Part shown: one piece after another, positions 19,372 to 51,100 of the stretch
Position numbering within the stretch: the stretch's first letter is position 1
Layout of the letters: every line of letters starts with the position of its first letter
Source of the DNA: Protonemura montana
Taxonomy: Eukaryota; Arthropoda; Insecta; Plecoptera; Nemouridae
Assembly: GCA_947568835.1 (NCBI GenBank)
Contig: OX387603.1
Coordinates: forward strand, 11,144,151-11,208,150
DNA: 64,000 nt
Direction: 5' to 3'
Program-made: the position numbers and the translations under genes
Notes under the pieces: model-generated
What the model was told of the DNA's origin: nothing
What the model saw: only the letters and a program-made list of their open reading frames with translations
Database searches by the model: none

Positions 19372-20249
19372 CTATGATGGCTGTTTTCTCTGATCGCCTG
19401 CATTTTCGGGAGCTGGTGGCTTGGTCTCCCTACCATGGAAGACTTGTCCAGAGAGATCGATACTGAAATTCGGATCCTGTGTCGAGGCCAGCGCAGCAGT
19501 GATCGCCTCATCCAGGTTACTAGCTGTTATAAATGTGGCTGATTTGGCCTGTGAAAGAAAAGAAAATTTAACTACCCATCTACAATCTAAAAGTAAGGTT
19601 TATAAGATATCCAATGCTTTAAAAGTTATTTTCACCTTTTCTTGTCGAACGAGCTCTTCTGCTGCTTCGAAGATCACCCTTTGTTTCCTTTCAGTTTCCA
19701 ACATTTTGTTCAAGGCTGCCTCCCTTGTTGCCACAGCCATAGCTTCGAGCCTGCTTTCCCTCAAAACAGCTACCTTCTGGTTCCATGCCAAGTTCAAGTC
19801 AGCGCACGACCTGTACTCATCTTCATTGGCTGCATCTGTGCCTGCAGCTTTTCTAGTCACATCTAAGTTGCTTTGTTCAGCTACTAGAAATCGACTGCAA
19901 GCAAACATGTTGAACTTTATTAATGGGGAAAGTGAATATCCTATTTTTGGAGACACTCGTACAACTTGACATGTAGTTCTTCCAGTGGCTTTTATGCAGA
20001 TTATAACATTCAGGGTTATGAGCGAAGCATATTTAACACTTACGTTATAGCTCGAAGTTGTGTTCGGTAATTGTTATGTAACCTCATCAGTTCAGCGGCC
20101 TCATCTGCTGGTATTACAGTTCTTTCAGGTACCCGAAACATCTTGCTTTTTGCAACTGGTAGCCAACGTGGCTTGCGACGCCAGCGTACACACTGAAGGC
20201 ATGTCGTAGTGAAGGATACGTCGAGATTTCGTGAGCTCAGACGAAGCAT
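19372..20249 (-). CDS. MRPS26: Mitochondrial small ribosomal subunit protein mS26
   Basis: Three exons on the minus strand: 20249-20044, 19894-19636, 19548-19372; 213 residues (human about 205). mS26 is a metazoan-specific protein of the mitochondrial 28S subunit with no bacterial counterpart. Diagnostic segments: a basic N-terminal presequence; RRKPRWLPVAKSKMFRVPER, corresponding to the RKTRHDPLAKSK region of vertebrate mS26; a HNNYRTQLRA segment; a long charged helix rich in Glu/Arg/Lys; and the C-terminal FITASNLDEAITAAL-x-NFSI motif, equivalent to FITRENLEARVEAAL. Start chosen at the ATG that gives the mitochondrial presequence. A 182-codon open frame on the opposite strand is a shadow of exon 2 and its flanks. 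It is convergent with the upstream Cys-rich gene. Confidence 0.92.
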
Positions 20250-24877: not shown

Positions 24878-25223
24878 CACTACGAGAAAATGCGGTAAGA
24901 ATAGGTTAGATTTTATTTATAAAATGAGGGGGTTAGTCAATAATAATTCCAGTTTCAGTTATACTCAATCAAATTTGGCGCAAGGTGTCTTGTTTCATTT
25001 TATCCTATTTAAAGTATAGGATGCCGATGCGGTCCCTTCGATCTTAAGTATATCATTCTTTCTCAATCTGTAATTACTTTGATGTGTAATATCACTGCAA
25101 ATTGAGTTTGATGTAGTGTTTCAGAACGCGTATGAGACTGAAATATTTGCGTTCTCGTCATGTTGAGACAGCCCAAATTTCAAAATTTGTGGTTAGTTTG
25201 TGTTCGTATGTCATTGAATAACC

Positions 25224-25436
25224 TTGTTGTTTTTTACATTCTTCACCAAAGAAACTGACGATACAAGTCCAGAACGAGAGCTAGCTCAGACCATGGACTA
25301 CTACCACCGTTCGTCTAATACCGCCTCAACCGCTACTACTGAAGAGGGGACTTTTATCCCAGAAAGAGAGCTCGATCAGACCATGGACCATGGACCAACC
25401 GCTACCACTAGAGAGGCGACTTTTATCCACGGGTAA
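25224..25436 (+). other. Unknown open frame with internal peptide repeat; duplicated at 27096-27308
   Basis: The frame encodes two related blocks, PERELAQTMDYY...TTEEGTFI and PERELDQTMDHG...TTREATFI. A pyrimidine-rich stretch and AAG at 25251-25255 could be an acceptor, and CACGG|GTAACT a donor, which would make an exon of about 180 bases starting in phase 1 (ETDD...). The family is unknown. The second copy is identical and part of the 1,872-bp tandem duplication. Confidence 0.3.
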
Positions 25437-25882
25437 CTTAAAATTTAAAGTCACTATCAACTTTTTTCTTGAACATAATAAAAACTTAATACAGGAAAGG
25501 CCAGATAGATGTACCTTCATGTACTTGAAAATATTGAAGACATTGAGGAAAGAAAACACACTAGAACTATTTCTAACTACTACTACTACTTCTACTACTA
25601 CTACTACAACTACAACTATACTACTATTTCTAACTCAAACTATAACTATAACATAACTATACTCTTAACAACTCATAACAGGAACACAAAACTACAGTGT
25701 GTGTGTGTGTATTTTTTTTCAAATTAATTCGATTGATGTTAGCCGGTTTGAGTTAGAGACTGGGCCAAAAAATGGGACCAGCACGGTTCGTTTGCTATTA
25801 TACCTGCACCTTTAAAGGAGATTACCGCGTACGCGATGGAATTGATTCGCAATTTTAGCCCGAGTTGATTGAACTTGGCACC

Positions 25883-26064
25883 AAATGGTTTGGCGTGTTG
25901 GAAACGCTGGTTTCGCATGAGATCACCGAAGTTAAGCAATATTACGCTAGGTCAGGTATTGGATGGGTGACCATCATAAACACGACCAGTTCTGTTTGGG
26001 AGAGAGGCTGGAGGGATGAAAGTTAGCACATAACTTTCTTTGCCTTGGTTATCAACCTCTCGAC
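25883..26064 (+). mobile_element. 5S rRNA-derived SINE head, copy 1 (truncated by LINE)
   Basis: The segment carries the 5S internal promoter pattern: gagatcaccgaagttaagca (box A region) and ttggatgggtgacc (box C region), preceded by gttggaaacgctggtttcgc. It matches the intact SINE at 34823-35235 up to about ttatcaacctc, where LINE sequence takes over. Confidence 0.8.
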
Positions 26065-26073
26065 AACCTTGTG

Positions 26074-26285
26074 AATAATTACAAGTACTTAGGAGTGGTT
26101 ATCAGCAATAATCTGGCGTGGAAAGATCAAATCGAAAGAGTGATCAGAAGAGGCATACGTACCTACACTAAATTTTGTTATTAGGCAGTTAAGAGGAATG
26201 GGAAGTGAAGTAAAAGAAAAGGCATATTTTGCTTTGGTGAGACCAGGGACAGAATACGGTGCCTCGGTACATGGGTCCGCACTTG
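26074..26285 (+). mobile_element. LINE reverse-transcriptase fragment, sense (N part)
   Basis: The frame reads NYKYLGVVISNNLAWKDQIE, then after a stop or frameshift RQLRGMGSEVKEKAYFALVRP and EYGASV. The pattern YLG(V/I)xI-x-W-x-I and V-K-x-x-A-Y-x-x-L-V-R-P-x-x-E-Y is the end of the reverse transcriptase of CR1/Jockey-like LINEs. The same fragment is repeated in copy 2 at 27946-28157. Confidence 0.7.
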
Positions 26286-26544
26286 CCTTTACCATGAATC
26301 TAAATGCACGCTTCTGCAGTGTAAACAATCTTTTGCATTTCGATGCACTTCCCCATAGGATCACCCCGTGGGATAGTCTCGATTCTATGTTAGAGAAATA
26401 CACAAGCCTTGCAGTTTCCAGTGTCGTTGCTTGCATCAACCTTTTTATGAGGTAGCAGTCGGAACTTTCCCAATTGAGAGATTCATCTATTATAATTCCC
26501 AGGAACCTAGTCTCCGTTTTCAGGGAAATGCTTTTATTTTTCAA
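26286..26544 (-). mobile_element. Second LINE reverse-transcriptase fragment, antisense, nested
   Basis: On the minus strand the frame reads TRFLGIIIDESLNWESS, then ARLVYFSNIESRLSHGVILWG and LFTLQKRAFRFM. This is the same RT region but a different LINE family from the flanking sense fragment, which it interrupts. It is repeated in copy 2 at 28158-28416. Confidence 0.7.
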
Positions 26545-26559
26545 TCTAATCAGTGGACT

Positions 26560-26875
26560 TTCGTTTGGGTATCGCTAGAAAAAAGAAGAAAAATTGATAG
26601 ATTGTGCAATTTCTTCAGAATAATGACAGGAAGCAGTGGATGGAAAGAGTTGGGTGTAAAGATAGAAATAGATGAAAACAAGTTTGGGTGCCGAAGAAAA
26701 CATGAAATAATGTAGTTATAAAATATATGAAGAAAGACACAGGCAAATACTCTTTTTTAAATAGAACGGGTAAAGATTGGAATGGAATGAAGAAAAGTGC
26801 AATGGAAGGGACTGAAAACAATGTTAACATTTTCAGAAGACATGTTAGAATTAGTATTAGAAAATAGTTTAGGTA
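26560..26875 (+). mobile_element. LINE fragment, sense (C-terminal part)
   Basis: The frame reads SLEKRRKIDRLCNFFRIMTG, then GWKELGVKIEID and RRKHEIM; after frameshifts, F-x-N-R-T-G-K-D-W-N and N-I-F-R-R-H-V appear. W-x-S-L-x-x-R-R-x-x-x-R is the conserved LINE ORF2 tail. It continues the sense fragment broken by the antisense insertion. Copy 2 is at 28432-28747, followed by an A-rich (AAAT)n-like tail at 28812-28844. Confidence 0.65.
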
Positions 26876-27754
26876 AATAGTTTTAGTATATTTTTTCTGC
26901 CACCTGTATGTTACATGCAAATTGCAATTCTTTCTCAATCTGTAATTACTTTGATGTGTAATATCACTGCAAATTGAGTTTGATGTAGTGTTTCAGAACG
27001 CGTATGAGACTGAAATATTTGCGTTCTCGTCATGTTGAGACAGCCCAAATTTCCAAATTTGTGGTTAGTTTGTGTTCGTATGTCATTGAATAACCTTGTT
27101 GTTTTTTACATTCTTCACCAAAGAAACTGACGATACAAGTCCAGAACGAGAGCTAGCTCAGACCATGGACTACTACCACCGTTCGTCTAATACCGCCTCA
27201 ACCGCTACTACTGAAGAGGGGACTTTTATCCCAGAAAGAGAGCTCGATCAGACCATGGACCATGGACCAACCGCTACCACTAGAGAGGCGACTTTTATCC
27301 ACGGGTAACTTAAAATTTAAAGTCACTATCAACTTTTTTCTTGAACATAATAAAAACTTAATACAGGAAAGGCCAGATAGATGTACCTTCATGTACTTGA
27401 AAATATTGAAGACATTGAGGAAAGAAAACACACTAGAACTATTTCTAACTACTACTACTACTTCTACTACTACTACTACAACTACAACTATACTACTATT
27501 TCTAACTCAAACTATAACTATAACATAACTATACTCTTAACAACTCATAACAGGAACACAAAACTACAGTGTGTGTGTGTGTATTTTTTTTCAAATTAAT
27601 TCGATTGATGTTAGCCGGTTTGAGTTAGAGACTGGGCCAAAAAATGGGACCAGCACGGTTCGTTTGCTATTATACCTGCACCTTTAAAGGAGATTACCGC
27701 GTACGCGATGGAATTGATTCGCAATTTTAGCCCGAGTTGATTGAACTTGGCACC

Positions 27755-27936
27755 AAATGGTTTGGCGTGTTGGAAACGCTGGTTTCGCATGAGATCACCG
27801 AAGTTAAGCAATATTACGCTAGGTCAGGTATTGGATGGGTGACCATCATAAACACGACCAGTTCTGTTTGGGAGAGAGGCTGGAGGGATGAAAGTTAGCA
27901 CATAACTTTCTTTGCCTTGGTTATCAACCTCTCGAC
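27755..27936 (+). mobile_element. 5S rRNA-derived SINE head, copy 2
   Basis: Identical to the segment at 25883-26064, as part of the 1,872-bp tandem duplication. Its missing 3' half is found beyond the LINE at 28846-29098. Confidence 0.8.
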
Positions 27937-28845
27937 AACCTTGTGAATAATTACAAGTACTTAGGAGTGGTTATCAGCAATAATCTGGCGTGGAAAGATC
28001 AAATCGAAAGAGTGATCAGAAGAGGCATACGTACCTACACTAAATTTTGTTATTAGGCAGTTAAGAGGAATGGGAAGTGAAGTAAAAGAAAAGGCATATT
28101 TTGCTTTGGTGAGACCAGGGACAGAATACGGTGCCTCGGTACATGGGTCCGCACTTGCCTTTACCATGAATCTAAATGCACGCTTCTGCAGTGTAAACAA
28201 TCTTTTGCATTTCGATGCACTTCCCCATAGGATCACCCCGTGGGATAGTCTCGATTCTATGTTAGAGAAATACACAAGCCTTGCAGTTTCCAGTGTCGTT
28301 GCTTGCATCAACCTTTTTATGAGGTAGCAGTCGGAACTTTCCCAATTGAGAGATTCATCTATTATAATTCCCAGGAACCTAGTCTCCGTTTTCAGGGAAA
28401 TGCTTTTATTTTTCAATCTAATCAGTGGACTTTCGTTTGGGTATCGCTAGAAAAAAGAAGAAAAATTGATAGATTGTGCAATTTCTTCAGAATAATGACA
28501 GGAAGCAGTGGATGGAAAGAGTTGGGTGTAAAGATAGAAATAGATGAAAACAAGTTTGGGTGCCGAAGAAAACATGAAATAATGTAGTTATAAAATATAT
28601 GAAGAAAGACACAGGCAAATACTCTTTTTTAAATAGAACGGGTAAAGATTGGAATGGAATGAAGAAAAGTGCAATGGAAGGGACTGAAAACAATGTTAAC
28701 ATTTTCAGAAGACATGTTAGAATTAGTATTAGAAAATAGTTTAGGTAAATAGTTTTAGTATATTTTTTCTGCCACCTGTATGTTACATGCAAATTGCAGT
28801 TTTTTCTAGGAAAAAATGAAAAGAATAAATAAATAAAATAAATAG

Positions 28846-36000: not shown

Positions 36001-39000
36001 AATTTGGTTATTTTTATAGGAGTAAACAATATTGTTTGAAATTTAATTAAGAAACTCGAAACCGACTGTTCCTAGAAAGACACGGTTATTAATGTATGAA
36101 AATTGGAGCTGTGACTTAAGAAATTAATATTTAAATGTCTTAATATGTGTCCTGATTCAAGTCCCTAATAAACCAGCAGGAAGAAGAGAGACAACTCGAG
36201 ATGGACTTCCAGGCTCGGTGGGCCGAGGAACAGAGGCATGAGGTGATGATAGTAATAATTTAATTTTACTTAAAACAATGTGTTATAGAAAGGTTGCATT
36301 ATTTTTTAATTATTTACATGGCTGTATGTTACATTTGTACACTTTTATCACATACATCACTTATATACTACATATTCAATATACAACAAAGGCATATTTA
36401 TTTTCTTTTAAAAAATTATGCGTCAGGCAGCTAAAAATTCTTTCTCTGAATAAAAGCTGTTAGAGACTAAGAACGTATAATTAAATTGGTTATGATTTAT
36501 GAAACTTATCTTAGAGCAATGCGTTGCGTTGAACAATACAAATTCAGCGTGAGACTTTTCTATTTTACAGGCATTGATGCGGATGGAAGACTCGATGGCA
36601 CCGCCTGTACAAAACTACGAACGACAAGTTATGTTCACCAGAAATGCCAACACTTTTGACCGTCACGAGCGAGAAATGGAGGTTAGTAAATCGACAGTTT
36701 TAATGACATCAGCGGATCTTAGCACACTTGGTTTTGGGCTTGGCTTTTGGTTTTACTTTGGGCTTAGATGCTGATAAAACATTCATTTTTTTGGGATTCC
36801 TAATTTTTTCTGTACAATGAACACTTATAAAACTTATTAGGTTTCTTATTTTCATGTGTTACATTGGATATAGAGCATGAATTTTATAAACAAAAAATCC
36901 TATTACACTTTATTAGGCAAATATATTTATGCATTCAGGAAAACCATTGCATTTCTAGTGTGCATGCTCGTTTAACGGCAGAAAAATTAACCTTTTGCAG
37001 GAACCTCCTGCACGGACATTTGCTGGACAGCCACACTTCTCTGCTCCACCTCCACAGAACGCAGACTTCTATCCCAGGCCCCCAACAAACTCTGCGTTTG
37101 AATCGAGCGACTCGTTCCCTTATCGAAGTCCCGCTCGGCAATGCCCTCCTGGCCACCAGCTGCCTCCCCTTTTCAGCCAACCTCCTCCAATTCTTCCCGT
37201 GCCTCTGGGCCAACACAACCAAGCACCGCCATTACTAAATAAACCTCCTCCCATGCACGGTCAAGGTGTGCCTGGTTTCAACAGGCCTCAAAATTTGAAC
37301 AATCTAGGACCTGCCATGCACAACAAACTTCCCAGCTTTAACAACTTCATCCATCCGTATCATAGTCCAAGCCACTCTTCGTCGAGAGACGAACGACCGT
37401 TTCGCAGCTTGGTGCCACAGTCACCATATCAGAGCCCCACCCATTCCGTTTCATCTGGTTTGCCAGATTTTGATGCGAGACAAACAATTGGTAGACCGAT
37501 TCGCCATGTTTCACCACCTCCGCAGCAGTTGTCGATGAACCCATTCGTCCAGCCAAACCGCAATCAACCCCAAACTCACCAGCAAAACCAACAGCAAACG
37601 ATGCAGAATCGTCGACAAGTCTTGCAAGTCGGTCAACAGTCACAAAAAATGCGACTGGCGGCCGAAAACGGACAGCAAGCTGAGCCCAATCGTCGTGTCG
37701 TGTTATCTAGCAATCTTCAGCAAGTGCGGTCTGCCAATGAAAGCTTGCGGGCGAACCTGCAACAGGTGCGGTCGATTAGTGCTGCTCAGGATCCTGCACT
37801 GCGAGCTCGGCCAATCCAAGAACAAGGACCTAGAATGTCACGTCAGCAAATTACGACACAAAATAAAGCAGCCCCACTAATTAGGCAACAAGCCCCATCA
37901 ATACGCTTGCAGTCCTCATCAACACGACAACCTGGCCCAAGTCGCCAACCTGGCTCTACCTTTAGGCACCCAGGGCCTGCTGCCAGACAACAGCGACCTA
38001 TTCGTCAGCAAGGACCCGCTCTTCGGCAGCAAGGACCCTCTGTCCGCCAGCAAGGACCTTCTGTCCGCCAGCAAGGACCCTTTGTCCCCCAGCAAGGGCC
38101 CTCAATTCGTCTACAAGGACCCTCTGTTCGTCAACAAGGACCCTCTGTACGCCAACAAGGACCCTCTGTTCGCCAACAAGGACCCTCTGTACGCCAACAA
38201 GGACCCACTAACCGACAACGAGGGTTGAACCAACCAGACCAGCAGGCACAAGCGCAAGTAGGGCCGTCTTTGCGTCTTGTATCGGCTACAAAGCGTCACC
38301 AGGGTCCTTTCGAAGATGAGGCGAAGAGAGCAAGGGTGAGTTGCTGTAATTCTATGTATGTTGGTGCGTCCTTTTCTCAGGGTGCTGCAATCTCCTGTTT
38401 TTGGTTTTATCAAAAACTCTAGTTAAATTGGTTGAAATGGTAAAATTTAATGAAACACCAGTTCTCTAGTGTCCCCTATGTTGTAGAAATAGCATTGCGG
38501 TCCATAAATAACTAGTGAGTGGACTGCGGCCTCGTCCGTGCAGTGTCCACTTCATCATTGGTTATTAATTACTGATCAACACGGATTCTGCCTACCTACC
38601 TTACACTTACGGTGTGAATTGTCTGCAGTTGGCTGCCCCAGAGCTGGCCTCTGGTGAAGCTGAGAATCCTTACATGGAGGAGGCAGAAGAAGGCGACGAC
38701 GAGTTGCGCAATTACCGCGCACAGATTGCGAAGCAGAAGAAGCTTCGCGATGCCGTTTTGTTGGCGAAGGAGTCTCGACGGCAACAGGGGGTCAGAGACC
38801 GACTGCTTGCACTTGAGCAGCAGCAGCAGGCAGAGGTCGGAGGTTAGTGAGCATGTTACTACTGGTGTTTTCTGCGGTTATGTTTCTTTCCACGCTAATT
38901 GCTAATGTTATATCTTGGGTTTTAAATGCTGAGAACCTTTTTTGGTCTATATATATGTCCTCTCCTGGTGCTTTCTTCTGAAGTTAACTCACTAGGAAAC

Positions 39001-42912: not shown

Positions 42913-45900
42913 ATGTTGTTCATCACAGTGCTCCTCGTCATCTTTTCAACGGCAACCTCATCGATGCCGCCGCGACCAGTCGTGACTACCTCGGATGGCG
43001 CTCTTCGGGGTACAACGATGACCACCCTCGGGGGTCGTACCGTGTACGCTTTCCTTGGTGTTCCGTACGCGCGACCTCCGTTGGCTGAACTCAGGTTTCA
43101 GGTATGCCACGACGGCGACCCTACGAGTTCAGTGACGGACTTGCAAAATTGCGAAGGACGTATACACAGTGTTAATCTCATAGCTACGGCATACTCCACA
43201 GACTTCTGAAATTTGCGTCAATTCTAATGAGAAACAAACTGGATGGGGTTTTGAAATTGTCTTTTCCACAATCTTACATCATTCACGATTAAGTTGAACA
43301 GTGCGTTTCAGTAAGATTGTGGAACAGGCCGGTTCATCTTGGACAGCTGCCTTATTTCGCCCCTTAGCAATATTTTATGAAAAATGTTGCGTTGCACTGG
43401 CCTCTCACTGGCGCTGGGAAAGAAGAGCCTCATCTTGACTACAGAGTTAAGAAATATACTATTTCGATTACTTTTTAACAATCTCCAAACTCAATACCCA
43501 ATTGACGATTGCAGCTACACTAATTTCGAGTGATCCGTTCGGGAAATCTGCACGAAAATTACATCACTAACCCCTACCCATTGCCAGGAAGTTATTTTTT
43601 TCCGGTACCCTCGCTAACGCGTCTTGTGCTTGTCTTACAGCCGCCAAAGAGGCCAGAGCCTTGGGAAGGTGTGCGCGACGCTGCGAAGGACGGCGACCGC
43701 TGCGCGCAGCTCACCTTTCCGGAACGAGATTTCGATGGGTCAGAGGACTGCCTATTTCTCAGCGTCTACACGACCCAAGTGAGAAGGGACTCGATCTATA
43801 CCCAGACTCAACGAACAACCGCTTGTTGATCCCATTCTCCTGGCCAATATAGTTATTTAATTAAAACGATGTATACCTACCTAGATAACTGCTGATGCAC
43901 ATGCTTATATCGTATGTAAGCACTCCTTATCGTATGTACACCCCGCTATGCACTATAACTGTGATTTTACTCCTTATCAACAACCGATTTTATCCAGTTC
44001 CAACTTACAACCATCTTCCTATATTTGTTTTATATGATCTGACATTGTGTCACTTTTTCACTTTTTTTGGTTCGTTCCTCCCTTGTCCCTACTGAAACAG
44101 GCAACGGGCTGCAACTGCAATGTCTCACCATGGAATGAAAGGCACTTATGACATAACCATGCCTGCGGCTGATTTGTTACGACTAGAGTTGAGATCGTTC
44201 TCTTTGTCGTCCAATTCTGAATAAATGAGCCTCAGTGCCCAGTGGCAAGAGGCATCTGATCAGATTTTTAGAAAAAAAAACATTGGTTGGTGTCCCCTGT
44301 CATGTACACGCGAGTAGAATGCTTCCACACATCTAAAAGTGCAGCATGAAGACAGGTCAATATTGTCCAACAGCTTCCCACGGAGGGCACAGACCTGCCT
44401 CAAGAGGACCTTCATGACGTCGTTGTACTGTTACACGGAGGCAGCTTCCAAAATGGAGCAGGGGACAGCCTTGCTTTCATGCCCGACCACCTCCTCGACC
44501 ACCCTATCGTGCTGGTCGGCGTCAACTATCGCCTCGGGCCCATTGGTAATACTCGCCGTTGATGTCCTGTCTATCAATCATTCGTGGGACACTCGATGAA
44601 AAGTTACTCTGTTGCTCACTCAAATCAATTTTGAACTATCGCTGGTAAAATTATTGTTGTTTCTCCCCGAGGCCTCAAGACATGGACTATTGACCTCTGT
44701 GATCTATTGACTCTCATCTGCATATAATGGGGGTTGGGGAGGAGGGGAAATAACGTGCCATGTAAATTCCCGAGGATATCATGGGTAGGTATCGATGAAA
44801 ATCCTCCCTGACTTAACCCTTGACCGTCACCCACAGGCTTCCTGGCCACCAATGACGAGCACGCCCTCGGCAATGCGGGACTGAAGGACCAGGTAGAAGC
44901 ACTGCACTGGGTACATCGTCACATCCACGCATTCGGGGGCAACGCGGGCTCCGTGACCCTTCTGGGCGCCCAGGCTGGGGCGTCTTCGGCCCATCTACAC
45001 GTATTGTCGCCACTCTCGAGGGATCGCTTCCACGGCGTCATATCGATGTCCGGTACCGCGCTCTCGCCTTCTGCGCTTGTGTCAACGCCCGTTGCCAAGC
45101 AAAGGGCCATCCAGTTGGGAAAACTCGTCGGATGCGATAAAGAGGTTGGTCGGAGGAAGACACTGAGAAAGAGAGGAATTGTTGTTTTTCACCAATGTTC
45201 ATAGCCCTAATATTGTATAATATCAGGCAGAAGCAAGCTAGTTGTACCGTTGTACTAAAACTTTTATATGGGCTTTGCAAGTAAAAAGTCGAGCCGAAAT
45301 TGACCCAAATAAAGAATACGACCAAGTAGATCAAGGCTGCACGCATCACTATTGCCCTGATTCCAACTACGTTAATCTACGCCTTCAACTTTGCAGACTG
45401 GTCTAGTAGAGTGTCTGAGGCGCGTGCCCGCTAAAGAGCTGGTGGAGACAGCCCCGAAGACGTTGGAGTGGCCGACTGACTACTCGCACGCGTTTGGCCC
45501 CGTCGTCGAGCCCCCCGTCCCCGGAAAGAGGGCCTTCCTGCCCCTGGATCCAGTACGCATGATGACCGACCTGCCGGCAGGGCCGCACGGCAGGTGGCGT
45601 AAGCCCTGGCTTGTTGGGGTAGCCTCGCACGAAGGCCTGCCGTTTGCACTGCGTGAGTCACGAGTCTCGCCCTACGCTGATTTAGTATTCAAAGTTTCTG
45701 AATGTGTATTGATGCAACCCGATGTGTTTTTACCCGCTTGAAAGCGTTTTTGTTGCATACCACAAAGATTAAGTCGAGTAGAGAATTGCAAGTAATTCTT
45801 TACTGTAAAGCCAGGTTAAATCCAATTTTTCTTAAAGGAATGGGGGTATTCCAGAATCTGAGAGTATTTCTTTTCTCTAAGGTATAACAGCGGTATAACC

Positions 45901-47643
45901 CTTTCTGGCCACCCCCTAATGTAGCCCCCGGCTCCTTTGCCGCCCTCTCCCTCTTTCTGGGAGTATTGGGACAAGTGTTTGGCAGAATCTTCATTAATCC
46001 TTTCGCCTTTCATCCTGACAGAGGCAATGGTGTTCCCGTACATCATGACAGCGCTCAAGTCTGACCCCGGCAAGTACGTGCCTCTTTTCCTGGGGATGGA
46101 GGAGGCCGACGAAGCTCTCGGACTACGCGCCTGGGATTTCTACCTTCGCAACAAGACGCTGGCCTATGGGACGATGTCGGAGCTGGCTGAGGTCAGTGCA
46201 GCGTGAAAAGAGGGGATTACAATCTTCTTGATTGACCCCTGCGTGTTTTAGGGTACAGGGTAGAATCCCATTTATTCCTGTGTTGCTTTGGCTACTTGAA
46301 ACTAAACAAGTAGTTGCTGTTAATACTAGAAATACCTAAGGTAGTACTATTAACCTTCCCAAGTTCCTAGTTTTCTTCAGAAAAGCCTCTCTGGTCTAGC
46401 CTCTCTGGAATTATCTTCTTTGTTCTTTGTTGTTATCTTCTCCGGTAAGTTTGATTAAAATTGTAGCACAGAATCATCGTGTGAGCAGCATAAGCCAAAG
46501 TAAGTCGATACCTAATCTATTTAGCCCATTTTTTGTAAAGTAAGCTCGTATCGTATCACGTGTGTAATGATTAACTGATACAGGTTATTTTTATGAAAGA
46601 GAAAAGCTTAGAGCACCGACTGTATATAATCATTCAAATTATTATCATTAATCAAAAGTCGGCTTTTCTCAATGCCAAAACTCAGGTAGGTAAACTAATT
46701 ATGTTTAGAAAAACACCAAGGAGAATGTATTGCTTTTCAATGCCACCTAGCACTGTTTGCTGCCAACTGAAAGTAAGTCTAAAAGGAAAGAAAATTAGTC
46801 TCAAATTTTTGATTGCCCATAGATGGTATCCGACTACACAGTACTGCGTGGGGTGTGGCGAAGCGTTGCCCTGGTCGGTGATCGGCTGCCTGTGTTTGCA
46901 TACCGCTTTTCATACGACCGTCGTTCAGCACGTATGTCGTTGGGCGTTCCACAAGGAGACGACCTCGAGTACCTGTTCCCTAACATCCTTGCTGGCAAGA
47001 AGCGAACATATCGCGAGAGTGAGCTGCCAACAGTGCGCAGACTCGCCAAAATAGTAGCAACATTTGCCAAGCACGGGTATGTGAATGGCTGGATTTGGGA
47101 AGGTTTTGGAATCCAAGTTCTTAAGAGCTTTTTATGTTCTAACTAAAGTTGCTTTTATCTAACGATGAGAAATGAAAGACAAGATCAGATGTGGTATCTG
47201 CGTAACTCACAGAGACAATTCTTAGGGAGATATTAGAAACCAATCTATCTTAAATTAGCAAAAGTTCCTCACTTGACAAGATTAATCAAGATATTGGCAA
47301 TGCATTTGGCAACTTGTTGTTCCTAATACTCCTCTCTCTCATTGCCCAAACACAACAAAAAATAAGACTCAGATCAACAAACAAGTTTAATGTATAACGA
47401 AATAAAAAAAACACTAGGGTATAATACATGTTCATGACAATGTGAGTGTTTTGCAGGGACCCCACACCAGAGGGCAGCACTCTCCTCGGAGCTGACCGGC
47501 TCTGGCCACAAGCCACTGCAGAGAGTTTCGAGTTTGTCGACATTGCCAGCGAGTTCACAGTGCATGAGGGATTCTACCCCGATCGCATGGCCTTCTGGGA
47601 GGACGTTCTCCCGACCACCAAGACAAAACATGACGAACTTTGA
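42913..47643 (+). CDS. Catalytically dead, ER-retained carboxylesterase-like protein
   Basis: Eight exons: 42913-43101, 43641-43778, 44374-44545, 44837-45144, 45397-45652, 46022-46191, 46823-47076, 47457-47643; 557 residues, the usual family length. Signal peptide at residues 1-18. Type-B carboxylesterase hallmarks are clear: GGRTVYAFLGVPYARPP, RFQPPKRPEPW, SEDCLFLSVY, oxyanion-hole HGGSF (130-134), GNAGLKDQVEALHWV, FGGNAGSVTLLG. The nucleophile elbow reads GAQAG (210-214), so the catalytic Ser is Gln212. The acid is kept (HEG, Glu348), but the catalytic His in the usual GxxHGDDLxYLF motif is Gln455 (GVPQGDDLEYLF). The chain ends KHDEL, a canonical ER-retrieval signal. It should therefore lie in the ER lumen without hydrolase activity, perhaps as a binding or chaperone protein. 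Start chosen at the first ATG; an upstream in-frame GTG is not used. Confidence 0.92.
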
Positions 47644-47916
47644 GTCTGATTTTCGAGTTATTAAACCTCTTTTACACAAAAAAAAAATGCAATTGCCGTG
47701 GCAATTACCGAAAAGCTTACCTAATTGACTCCGAGATTTGTCTCGCTCATTTTTCTCCCACGTTCCTCACCACCTTTAACCCGCAATTATTTAATAACTT
47801 TTATAAAGAAAAATGCTGCTTGCAAGTCTGATTGGTAATTAAAGTATGGTAATACATTTTTTTAGTACTGCCACTGTAGCTCGTTTTTTTCTGTGAGCCT
47901 CATAGCATGACAAGAT

Positions 47917-48108: not shown

Positions 48109-51100
48109 TCATTGTTGCTTGCAAGAAGAGTCTCGTGACTTGACTTTCTTGATCGTCTTCTCCTCAGAAGTTCGTCTTTGCCCCTGAACGGGCATGTACG
48201 GTGGTGCAGCTTCCTCCGACTCTGAAGGAAAAATGTTACTTTAGACATAGTTGTGAAATGAGCCAAAATATGAGTTTTACCACCACATAAAAACATCACA
48301 ATGGACTAACAAACCCAATTAATTGATGCTGAATGTAGTTTTTGACAACCTAATAAAATAGTAATTCTTACGAACCTGGTGACGAGACGGGGCTCTCGAC
48401 TCTTCGCCTCGGGTAAGTAGGATCTATCGCGATGGCGATGTTACTACTTGGGGAGTCTAAAGTCTCGATACAGTCAAGGTCGGCTAGCTGAGCCCGTCTG
48501 CAAAGAAATATGATGTTGATTGGGGCAAACCATTCATGGGTTCACAACATATTACTTTTAATATTCAAATGATACAGTGCACCAGAATACTTGAATTAAG
48601 ATATGCTGGAGATGGATGCTATTGCAAAATTTTCTATTAAAATGACAGTCGCATAAATGGCATTAATTTGGGGTATTTGGCTTGAGCACCACAAGTTCAC
48701 AAGCTGAATTATTTTGTCAAAAAAGGTACTCAATCAGGGCTAAGGCTCAAAAAAAAAACTGCCTTAATTACATTAAAATTGTAACTATTTACTCACTTCT
48801 TTTAAGCAGTCCCCACCAATGAAAATTTGTTACGTGTTTATAACTCTATATCAATTTTACTTCAAAGGAATGTTGTTCAGCGATTGGGACCCACCTCAGA
48901 TCGAGATCCGTTGGCCTAATCGCTGGCTCCTGCTCTGTGGTAAGCTGCTCTTCCTGCTGTCTGATTAGCTCCTCCTCCTGCTGTTTGCGAAGCTGTGCCT
49001 TCTGCCGCGAGCGTTCACGTGCCCTTTTAGCTTTGGCTCGCTCCTAATAACAAAGTCGTAGTGTTAAAATGATGAGTGTAGTTTGTCATGGGTGTTTCAG
49101 CAGCAGTTGGTAAACTCTACTAAGTGTTTCTATTAGTGCCAAAAGAAACTATCTTATTATTAGATTAGAATAACACATGAAGGCAAATGTAATCTTACAA
49201 TCTTACATTACTACGAAAGCATTTAAGTATTATGAGTAATATTATGAGTATTATTAACAGTAAATCAGACAACATAGAAGGCATTGCAGTTTGGGGCTAA
49301 AGTGCATTAATGGCGACTGACCCTGTCTTGCAGCATTCGGGCAAGCTCCTTATCTTGGGCCTCGATGGCCATCAGCCGGTCAGCATCTTGCCGGGCCAGC
49401 TCCGGGTCCACCCCATCCTGTGCTTGCAGCCGCCTAGCAAACTCCTGCAACACACATTTTTTTAATTCTTGCTCATGAACACATTAACTGTAGGGTCTAT
49501 ATATCAGTAAAGTAGGTACTGATATAGGAATCCATTTACCTACAGGTTCCTAGGTACAGGAACCGCCAGTGATTTTTAAGTCGCTGAAGCATTTAATGTT
49601 TTTCAGTTAAGAGAAAACCACAACCGGGATAACCTGAAGAGAGGTAGGATGAAACAGAGACCCATTAGCAACCATGTAAGCAAAATGATAAGGTAGACTT
49701 TTTTTTATGACATGAGTCTAAAAACCATCATAAAGCTTAATCTTTGCTTTGCTCAAACCTATTGAAGTGATCATGTATGGTCGTCTGTGGCAGACCAATT
49801 AACGTGGTGTCAGTTTCACACATGACTTTTGTTTATTTGTAGCTGTTGCCGCCAAACGATTGTCTGTTTATTTCACCGCCAGTGGCTGGCTAAACCGTGA
49901 TCGACGAGTGTCACTCTAGTCATGGCACAAACATGAGCATGTCCCAAAGAGTCACCCGCCAACCACAAAACAGCTCATAGCCCGCAAACGTTGACCTTTG
50001 CTAATTTCACTTATCTGATGCTAGTTGAGTTGACTTGCTGTACTCACAGTCAAAGCATAGATGATTTTATTACCCCCGTCATGAGTGAGTCTGTCCCTGA
50101 GCAGTGATTTATTGGCATGTATTGATTGAGTTGTTATATAATATATACATAAGATAATAATATACACTAAATATAATATATAATAATATAATATGGCAGC
50201 ACGTTAGCCTTGTCACTATTATTTTCATTAATTATTGCCAGGTTGATAGTTGCAAGTATGCTACATAATGATGATAAGAAGTACACCTTCAGATAATATA
50301 ATATATTATATATTCTTGCGCAAATGAAAGGAAACAAAATTCTGCCAGGCTAGTAAATATAGCATATTAATACTACATATTACTGGACATGACTGACATA
50401 TTACATATTACATATTACTGACATATTACTAAATTACTTGCCTAGAGCAGCAGAAAATGCAACAGAGAGAATGAATTCAAGTTAAGAACTAGTAAAAAAC
50501 ATTTGTGTCCCTCTCAAAAACAAACCATTGGCATTGCCCTAAGAAACAGCAAACATGAAGCTTTATCTTCTAAATTAATTTCCTTCAGCATCATGCCATT
50601 ACATGATAAAATGTGTAAAAATTAAAACTAAAAACATCTTCCTTCCTTCCCCTTCCACTCACCGCGTCCTGTTCCTCCTGCCGCCTGCGCGCTTCTATCT
50701 CCTGACGTGCACCATCCTCTAGACTCAGTGCTCGCACCTGCTGTGCTAATATCAGTGCAGCGTCTGCCCGGCGGTTGGCTGCCTCGTCGCCGTCTTCTTC
50801 AGCCGTCTCTACTTCCCAAGCTGCCTCGGTTGTAGGCAGACCCACACGATTCATCTCAATACGCTCGCGCTCTCGCTCCTAGGCACAAGGACAGGTGGCA
50901 GTTAAGTGTGGTGTTTGGATAAGCTTTTAGAGTTGCTTGCAATTTTTTTCCATGTAACTTGTCAGAGAGTAACTTGTCTGCATTTTTTCCCGACGATTTC
51001 GGGCATTTCATCTCTATTAACTACTATGGTTTGTAAGTAAACATATTTGTTTGTATTAATGTATTAAGTCATGCTTTGAATGCTAGCAAGTTACTTTAAT

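Follow-up and report, generated by a model that had tools for sequence, protein, structure and literature searches.

The carboxyl/cholinesterase (CCE) gene at 42913-47643 (+) of a 64,000-nucleotide stretch of the Protonemura montana genome (contig OX387603.1, hereafter the window) raises the question of what an esterase-fold protein does when two residues of its catalytic triad have been replaced and its C-terminus carries an ER-retrieval signal. The gene belongs to family PF00135 and has 8 exons, which join into 1674 nt encoding 557 amino acids. Its features are as follows.

42913..43101, + strand: exon 1, signal-like N-terminal sequence, then the first part of the CCE domain
42916-42945, + strand: hydrophobic core (residues 2-11) of the signal-like sequence in exon 1
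43641..43778, + strand: exon 2, C84 and C100, first conserved CCE disulphide pair, by homology
44374..44545, + strand: exon 3, oxyanion loop HGGSF, residues 130-134
44443..44445, + strand: Ser133, at oxyanion Gly137 of LcαE7
44837..45144, + strand: exon 4, nucleophile elbow GAQAG, residues 210-214
44971-44973, + strand: Gln212 (CAG), at the nucleophile Ser site (LcαE7 S218)
45070..45072, + strand: Ser245, at Trp251 of LcαE7
45397..45652, + strand: exon 5, triad acid Glu348 retained
45631-45633, + strand: codon of the retained triad acid, Glu348
46022..46191, + strand: exon 6, N-glycosylation sequon N398-K-T
46823..47076, + strand: exon 7, VPQGDD motif with Gln455
46952-46954, + strand: Gln455 (CAA), at the catalytic His site (LcαE7 H471)
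47457..47643, + strand: exon 8, C-terminus and stop
47626..47640, + strand: KHDEL, K/HDEL-type ER-retrieval tail
47660..47665, + strand: ATTAAA, polyadenylation-signal-like hexamer, 16 nt 3' of the stop codon

The intact 557-residue frame claimed by the sequence-only reading was borne out. All 7 introns are GT-AG, the reading ends in KHDEL-stop, and the 1674 nt and 7 introns contain none of the frame breaks or lost splice sites of a pseudogene. The GC3 of the coding sequence is 66.8% versus an intron GC of 40.1%. The COesterase (PF00135) match spans residues 21-543 at 407.3 bits (cut-off 27), which places the protein in the family, and the NCBIfam search gave weak matches only, all under their cut-offs. 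When the window was aligned, with splicing, to a profile built from two solved esterases alone, whose rows came from an alignment (A1) that also contained the window protein, exons 1-7 of the eight were recovered. Splice ends matched the gene model, the one exception being the exon 4/5 junction (shifts of 4 and 10 bases). This alignment ended at the end of exon 7 and missed the divergent exon 8. A tblastn search of the window at E values up to 10 returned just the eight exons and no alternative esterase exons. The idea of tandem esterase genes within the window was thereby rejected, and one copy of the gene was found in the genome.

Residue numbers of LcαE7 were transferred via the alignment row of PDB 9d1j. 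As had been read from the sequence, the Ser and His of the triad are both Gln while Glu348 is kept, and the codons of Gln212 and Gln455 both lie mid-exon. The 11 comparison paralogues from the same genome and both solved-structure rows each have Ser, Glu, and His, whereas the Gln-Glu-Gln (Q-E-Q) arrangement of the window protein is not the Ser-Glu/Asp-His triad with GxSxG of an active CCE. Lacking both the nucleophile (Ser) and the base (His), the protein would be unable to hydrolyse esters in the CCE manner. The replacement of both residues by the same amino acid, to which the sequence-only reading gave importance, carries little weight because a single base change turns His into Gln; Ser to Gln takes at least two. 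The oxyanion motif HGGSF had also been called fully conserved, which is incorrect: of the oxyanion-hole residues (G136, G137, and A219 of LcαE7), the equivalents G132 and A213 are retained and the G137 site, the third position, is Ser133. This change alone need not inactivate the protein, since paralogue L013, with the nucleophile motif GHSAG (its His column was not read), also has Ser there. Ser245 replaces a Trp that is found in all other rows but L014 and that we take to line the acyl pocket. The claim of a conserved fold holds, with the COesterase domain running end to end and 49 of 56 columns identical in the other 13 rows (the 11 paralogues and the two solved structures) retained; through Ser133 and Ser245 the active site is altered more than the sequence-only reading had held. 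The near-invariant losses showed no significant enrichment at active-site positions, a set of seven chosen by us (Fisher p = 0.065).

The C-terminal KHDEL is present in the gene model, as first noted, and by composition the chance of a C-terminal [KRH]DEL is ~3.5e-5. The single strong hydrophobic stretch is N-terminal, and the later 19-residue hydropathy maximum is 1.24, both by a hydropathy count. A signal-like sequence, an xDEL end, and the lack of a transmembrane-like stretch are the sequence features of K/HDEL ER-lumenal proteins, and we infer that the window protein is located in the ER lumen. A membrane-bound CLAM was rejected because there is no transmembrane-like stretch after residue 30. 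Both CCE cysteine pairs (C84/C100 and C266/C275) were found. Among the ~27 CCE loci of the genome, three intact-triad paralogues (L019, L021, and L025) have xDEL tails; the ER tail is therefore a family trait, and the predicted loss of catalysis, rather than the tail, is the standout feature.

We propose, tentatively and with a probability of about 0.4, that the gene product is a soluble ER-lumenal pseudo-esterase most likely acting by protein binding. The signal sequence would take the protein into the ER, where the α/β-hydrolase fold would form with two disulphides, and KHDEL would retrieve it. Its role would most likely be that of an escort, a folding partner, or a heteromeric subunit for secretory cargo, and its partners may include the xDEL esterases in its own genome that look active. 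The sequence itself points to no particular partner.

Whether the gene is maintained or decaying bears directly on this proposal. Under a neutral model conditioned on the two changes to Gln, using endpoint probabilities and ignoring indels, which is generous to decay, the probability of no stop and at most 5 losses at the 54 other invariant positions was 7.4e-5 with a log-uniform time prior. Old neutral decay is thus unlikely as the source of the gene, and this part of the earlier claim of a selected non-enzymatic lumenal role stands; selection for the Q-E-Q state and a binding role is something we infer. Constraint may have been relaxed recently: the gene may be that of an ER-lumenal CCE that lost catalysis a short time ago and is drifting with its frame still open. 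With neutral divergence of no more than 0.05 per site after the loss, the joint probability in the model rises to 0.095. The window protein has lost 7 of 56 invariant positions, including G58, N195, P203, G229, and L523 besides the triad sites, compared with 0-3 in each paralogue of the genome and 9 of 63 in 9d1j, which has an intact triad. Its branch lengths of 1.34, 1.46, and 1.65 are two to two-and-a-half fold the medians (0.69, 0.70, and 0.65), as drift would predict. Against drift, a change that takes at least two bases (Ser to Gln) has been accommodated in 557 codons without a stop, and no damage shows in introns, splice sites, or GC3. We regard recent relaxation as possible, though on the doubtful side.

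The origin of the gene gives no close parent. The best identity with a near-full-length paralogue is ~36%, the partial model L015 reaches 40.5% across 343 columns, and the best single exon has 59%; a close intact paralogue as the direct parent was rejected on these values. The protein sits on a long branch. In three trees it grouped with α-esterase-like rows (supports 97/96, 99/96, and 99/97), and in a fourth it fell on the secreted side (87/83), with the α-like grouping not rejected (p-AU 0.106); placement between the two groups differs among the four trees. AU tests rejected sisterhood with the xDEL paralogues L019 and L021 (p = 0.0003; 0.027 when PDB 7mp4, 'Carboxylesterase-24', was added) and with L025 (p = 0.013). 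Scans of viral_contigs and genome_contigs returned no relative, the genome of the window being the sole animal genome compared. Five separate loci of that genome, neuroligin-like by their motif, have GHGTG (four) or GHDTG (one).

In the ER lumen, the protein could instead act as a non-covalent binder or sink, with the old gorge holding an ester, hormone-like, or lipid ligand uncut. The fold framework needed for this is retained, but three replacements change the pocket itself: Gly to Ser in the oxyanion hole (Ser133), Ser to Gln at the elbow (Gln212), and Trp to Ser at position 245. Covalent trapping of organophosphates requires the catalytic Ser, which speaks against a sink. Sequestration has been proposed for amplified silkworm α-esterases in the same passage that describes triad-altered ones (PMC2784812), and overall we consider ligand binding unlikely. 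An enzyme of other chemistry, for example with Glu348 acting together with Gln212/Gln455, or with Ser133, is compatible with the sequence and with the retention of Glu348; the CCE positions lack a general base and a nucleophile, no CCE is known to work without them, and such activity is highly improbable. Finally, a gene-model or assembly artefact masking a true Ser and His was rejected on the tblastn and two-esterase-profile evidence, as the profile without the window protein gives the same exons around both mid-exon codons, the gene is single-copy, and at least three base changes would need to be errors.

Compared with known systems, the closest in sequence are the intact-triad insect α-esterases and secreted CCEs (the LcαE7 group, 7mp4, L010, L019, L021, and L025), with PF00135 end to end, shared introns, and 32-36% identity; L019, L021, and L025 also share the tail, and the window protein differs in its Q-E-Q and Ser245. 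Triad-altered CCEs have been reported in several insect genome surveys, with their functions left open. Outside the neuroligin-type clades, the triad is altered with the CCE frame kept, as in the window protein, in 15 of the 55 α-esterases of the silkworm (PMC2784812) and in 5 of 39 CarEs of the locust (LmCesE11/E12/D3/F1/I1) (PMC3983256). LmCesE12 (GIHAG, H220-E358-Q472) has likewise lost Ser and His, kept Glu, and gained Gln at the His site (PMC3983256). The passages on them discuss no ER tail and show no Ser-to-Gln change (PMC2784812, PMC3983256). Passages of PMC8956072, PMC7071726, and PMC7930282 mention neither ER tails nor triad loss for CCEs. Honeybee D-AP1 (GB15327) and clade A α-esterases have a signal sequence and a C-terminal ER-retention signal, but D-AP1 is described with active-enzyme motifs (PMC1761136). 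Salmon louse clade O carboxylesterases are predicted to be soluble with cytoplasmic or ER targeting, and three clade O and E sequences lack triad residues; the passages on them name no single protein with both ER targeting and triad loss, and one triad-altered clade O protein is described as cytosolic (PMC8387733). Given these reports and the xDEL paralogues of its own genome, the combination is not as unusual as the sequence-only reading had held.

CLAMs (neuroligin, gliotactin, neurotactin, and glutactin) also combine the CCE fold with a usually altered triad, and are mostly membrane-bound or matrix adhesion molecules (PMC9958613, PMC1761136). The window protein differs from them in having an ER-retrieval tail instead of a transmembrane-like stretch. 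The ChEL domain of thyroglobulin is non-catalytic. This CCE-like fold acts by binding inside the ER, also in trans: expressed separately, it binds the rest of thyroglobulin and rescues its ER export (PMC9657758). ChEL is part of a very large protein that vertebrates secrete, whereas the window protein is a free KHDEL protein. An independently evolved counterpart, i.e. a dedicated KHDEL-retrieved escort or regulatory subunit that pairs with the xDEL esterases of its genome or other cargo and controls their folding or release, is an improbable version of our proposal in so specific a form. If merely relaxed, the gene is one more dead copy. If selected, it would be a clear-cut example of how a detoxification-type enzyme of the ER became a non-enzymatic lumenal protein, its three intact-triad xDEL relatives would serve as possible partners and controls, and whether triad-altered CCEs act as ER escorts or subunits would become testable. 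The window protein is probably a further case of the known triad-altered insect CCEs, an ER-lumenal pseudo-esterase with a binding role.

The 64-kb window holds one gene of the carboxyl/cholinesterase (CCE, PF00135) family. The following features were assigned.

42913-47643, + strand: CCE gene; eight exons separated by GT-AG introns only, with 1674 nt encoding 557 residues
52065-52445, - strand: CCDC50 N-terminal domain (PF15295, 3.9e-12), downstream of the esterase gene on the opposite strand
19603-20073, - strand: mitochondrial ribosomal protein S26 (PF14943, 6.5e-11)

The CCDC50-domain gene perhaps also includes 50594-50878 (-) and 48849-49043 (-). Pfam COesterase matches the CCE protein over residues 21-543 (407 bits), and its top matches among the best 60 of 155 solved sequences are esterases, with 'Carboxylesterase-24' (7mp4) first, followed by a group including 'E3 alpha-esterase-7' (4fng) and then by cholinesterases. 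Together with the α-esterase-like paralogues described below, these matches suggest an insect source. GC3 of the coding sequence is 66.8% vs an intron GC of 40.1%, and ATTAAA lies 16 nt 3' of the stop codon. The sequence-only reading of a CCE gene with Gln at both the Ser and His sites of the catalytic triad was borne out. A purpose-written spliced aligner recovered exons 1 to 7 with a profile of only two solved esterases, whose rows were drawn from an alignment (A1) in which the window protein also stood. The splice ends agree except at the exon 4/5 junction (shifted 4 and 10 bases), and the alignment ended at exon 7, the divergent exon 8 not being recovered by this profile. Both Gln codons are internal to exons 4 and 7 and distant from splice sites, tblastn of the window found no spare CCE exon, and a DNA search found one copy of exon 4 in the genome.

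Elsewhere in the window, two head-to-tail copies of a 1.88 kb block are 99.84% identical (25055-26935 and 26927-28807), reflecting either a very recent duplication or an assembly artefact. Each copy contains an identical 161-aa ORF, which looks like the terminal part of a jockey-type reverse transcriptase; the one copy tested gave no Pfam match. A 21-bp tandem repeat (9.8 copies, 38001-38206) inside the ORF at 36959-38419 (+) encodes successive RQQGPSV units; the protein is rich in Q and P and has no Pfam match above its cut-off.

The active site was mapped from the window protein through the row of the solved structure 9d1j to the reference α-esterase LcαE7 (catalytic numbering from the excerpted text of PMC9958613). 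Ser218 and His471 of LcαE7 correspond to Gln212 and Gln455, and Glu351 corresponds to Glu348. The oxyanion motif, earlier read as intact, is so only in part: Gly136 and Ala219 are retained as Gly132 and Ala213, while the position of Gly137 is occupied by Ser133. Ser133 alone is not decisive because the paralogue L013 likewise has Ser there and its elbow reads GHSAG (His column unread); judged from the sequence, the decisive change would be the absence of Ser and His. Trp251 of LcαE7, located in the acyl pocket, is replaced by Ser245.

The genome holding the window (258.5 Mb, 34 contigs) has at least 90 exon-level PF00135 matches, and its CCE counts are lower bounds because 84 of 140 candidates were scored. 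The nucleophile column was read in 27 loci, namely 22 loci and five others called neuroligin-like by their motif, each cluster being taken as one gene. It is Ser in 17 of them. The ten exceptions have Gln (window gene), Arg (L004), Asp (L022), or Gly (L024 and L027), or are the neuroligin-like loci, of which four read GHGTG and one reads GHDTG. The His column, readable in 15 of the 22 loci, is His in 14 and Gln solely in the window gene. All 11 comparison paralogues (L009, L010, L011, L014, L016, L018, L019, L020, L021, L023, and L025) keep Ser, Glu, and His. L014 (G000:C1:21740500-21748000) combines its intact triad with an odd oxyanion loop (PGGTF vs HGGGF) and has Tyr where the acyl-pocket Trp stands. 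In a low-scoring gene model, L022 (G000:C12:4786000-4795500) is a second, differently altered CCE with GQDTG, Asp for the nucleophile, and Glu and His in the other two columns.

The C-terminal tails were counted in 13 models that extend into this region with a stop codon, including the window gene, the low-scoring L022, and L028, and leaving out L018, L027, partial models, and the neuroligin-like loci. Four end in xDEL, an ER-retrieval type of tail: the window gene (HDEL), L019 and L025 (RDEL), and L021 (ADEL). Since the other three have intact triads, the tail is a family trait in this genome, and lost catalysis is what distinguishes the window gene among the xDEL members.

The window protein is 32-36% identical to the comparison paralogues and 40.5% identical to the partial model L015 over 343 columns; the top exon-level identity is 59%. 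Most intron positions are common to the window gene and the comparison paralogues, which additionally have introns at profile columns 222 and 458; the window gene also has an intron near column 263 that differs from one at ~288-292 in the paralogues. In three trees the window protein groups with α-esterase-like rows (97/96, 99/96, and 99/97) on branches of 1.34, 1.46, and 1.65 vs medians of 0.69, 0.70, and 0.65, and in a fourth, with two longer paralogue models included, it falls on the secreted side (87/83). Long-branch effects on this placement are likely. The AU test rejected its grouping with L019 and L021 (p = 0.0003), with these and 7mp4 (p = 0.027), and with L025 (p = 0.013); neither the α-esterase-like placement (p = 0.106) nor pairing with 9d1j (p = 0.18) was rejected.

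The window protein is probably a functional pseudo-esterase, and relaxed decay of its gene is a possible alternative; the long branch is compatible with relaxed constraint as well as with an altered role. The protein retains 49 of the 56 columns identical across the other 13 rows, having lost G58, N195, P203, S212, G229, H455, and L523. This share is high for this genome, where losses per paralogue are 0 to 3 (of 54-57), yet within the range of a divergent intact-triad esterase because 9d1j, with its triad intact, loses 9 of 63 (7mp4, 4 of 57). Active-site columns are not significantly enriched among near-invariant losses (3/7 vs 10/80, Fisher p = 0.065, for seven self-chosen columns). A neutral null was computed from endpoint probabilities, with indels ignored, given the two replacements by Gln, that of His and that of Ser (which takes two or more base changes). 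The probability that the frame stays free of stop codons and that no more than 5 of the 54 other invariant columns are lost was 7.4e-5 under a log-uniform time prior, 0.012 at a neutral divergence of ≤0.1 per site, and 0.095 at ≤0.05. Old decay is unlikely and recent relaxation is possible.

The N-terminus has a strong hydrophobic core (MLFITVLLVIF) with no transmembrane-like stretch downstream, and the protein has a single N-glycosylation sequon and the two cysteine pairs of CCEs. Because of the signal-like sequence and the terminal KHDEL, the protein is predicted to be soluble and ER-lumenal. Ester hydrolysis should be absent because the nucleophile and base are gone, and it is only remotely conceivable that the protein is still an enzyme with another chemistry. 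It may instead act by binding in the ER lumen, escorting other proteins, helping them fold, or joining them as a subunit, and the xDEL esterases of the same genome, with their intact triads, are possible partners; ligand sequestration is a rival to this role. We favor binding by analogy, because the thyroglobulin cholinesterase-like domain binds and ERMO3 works regardless of its catalytic residue. According to the excerpted text of PMC9657758, the former, made as a separate secretory protein, binds the remainder of thyroglobulin and restores ER export, and the CCE fold is thus a proven binding module. ERMO3, a plant pseudoenzyme of the GDSL-lipase/esterase type that is synthesized in the ER and transported to the vacuole, sustains ER morphology with or without the catalytic residue (excerpted text of PMC3498303).

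Triad-altered insect CCEs are frequent. In the excerpted texts of the surveys, 15 of the 55 α-esterases of the silkworm have an altered triad, with expression evidence for 11 of the 15 (PMC2784812), as do 5 of 39 locust CarEs (PMC3983256). The full triad is kept by 12 of 19 members of one predatory-mite clade and by 12 of 15 of another, and by none of three unplaced CCEs (PMC4965064). CCEs with ER-retention signals are reported in the honeybee (PMC1761136). Salmon louse proteins of clade O are predicted to be cytoplasmic or ER-targeted, and triad residues are missing in three clade O and clade E sequences, including a clade O protein described as cytosolic (PMC8387733). The excerpted literature gave no description of one insect CCE combining lost Ser and His with an xDEL tail; one could well be present, unremarked, in these surveys. 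Triad loss and the ER tail have each been described before on their own, and the tail is shared with intact-triad paralogues. The locust LmCesE12 (GIHAG, H220-E358-Q472) resembles the window protein in having lost Ser and His, the latter to Gln, while keeping Glu (excerpted text of PMC3983256).
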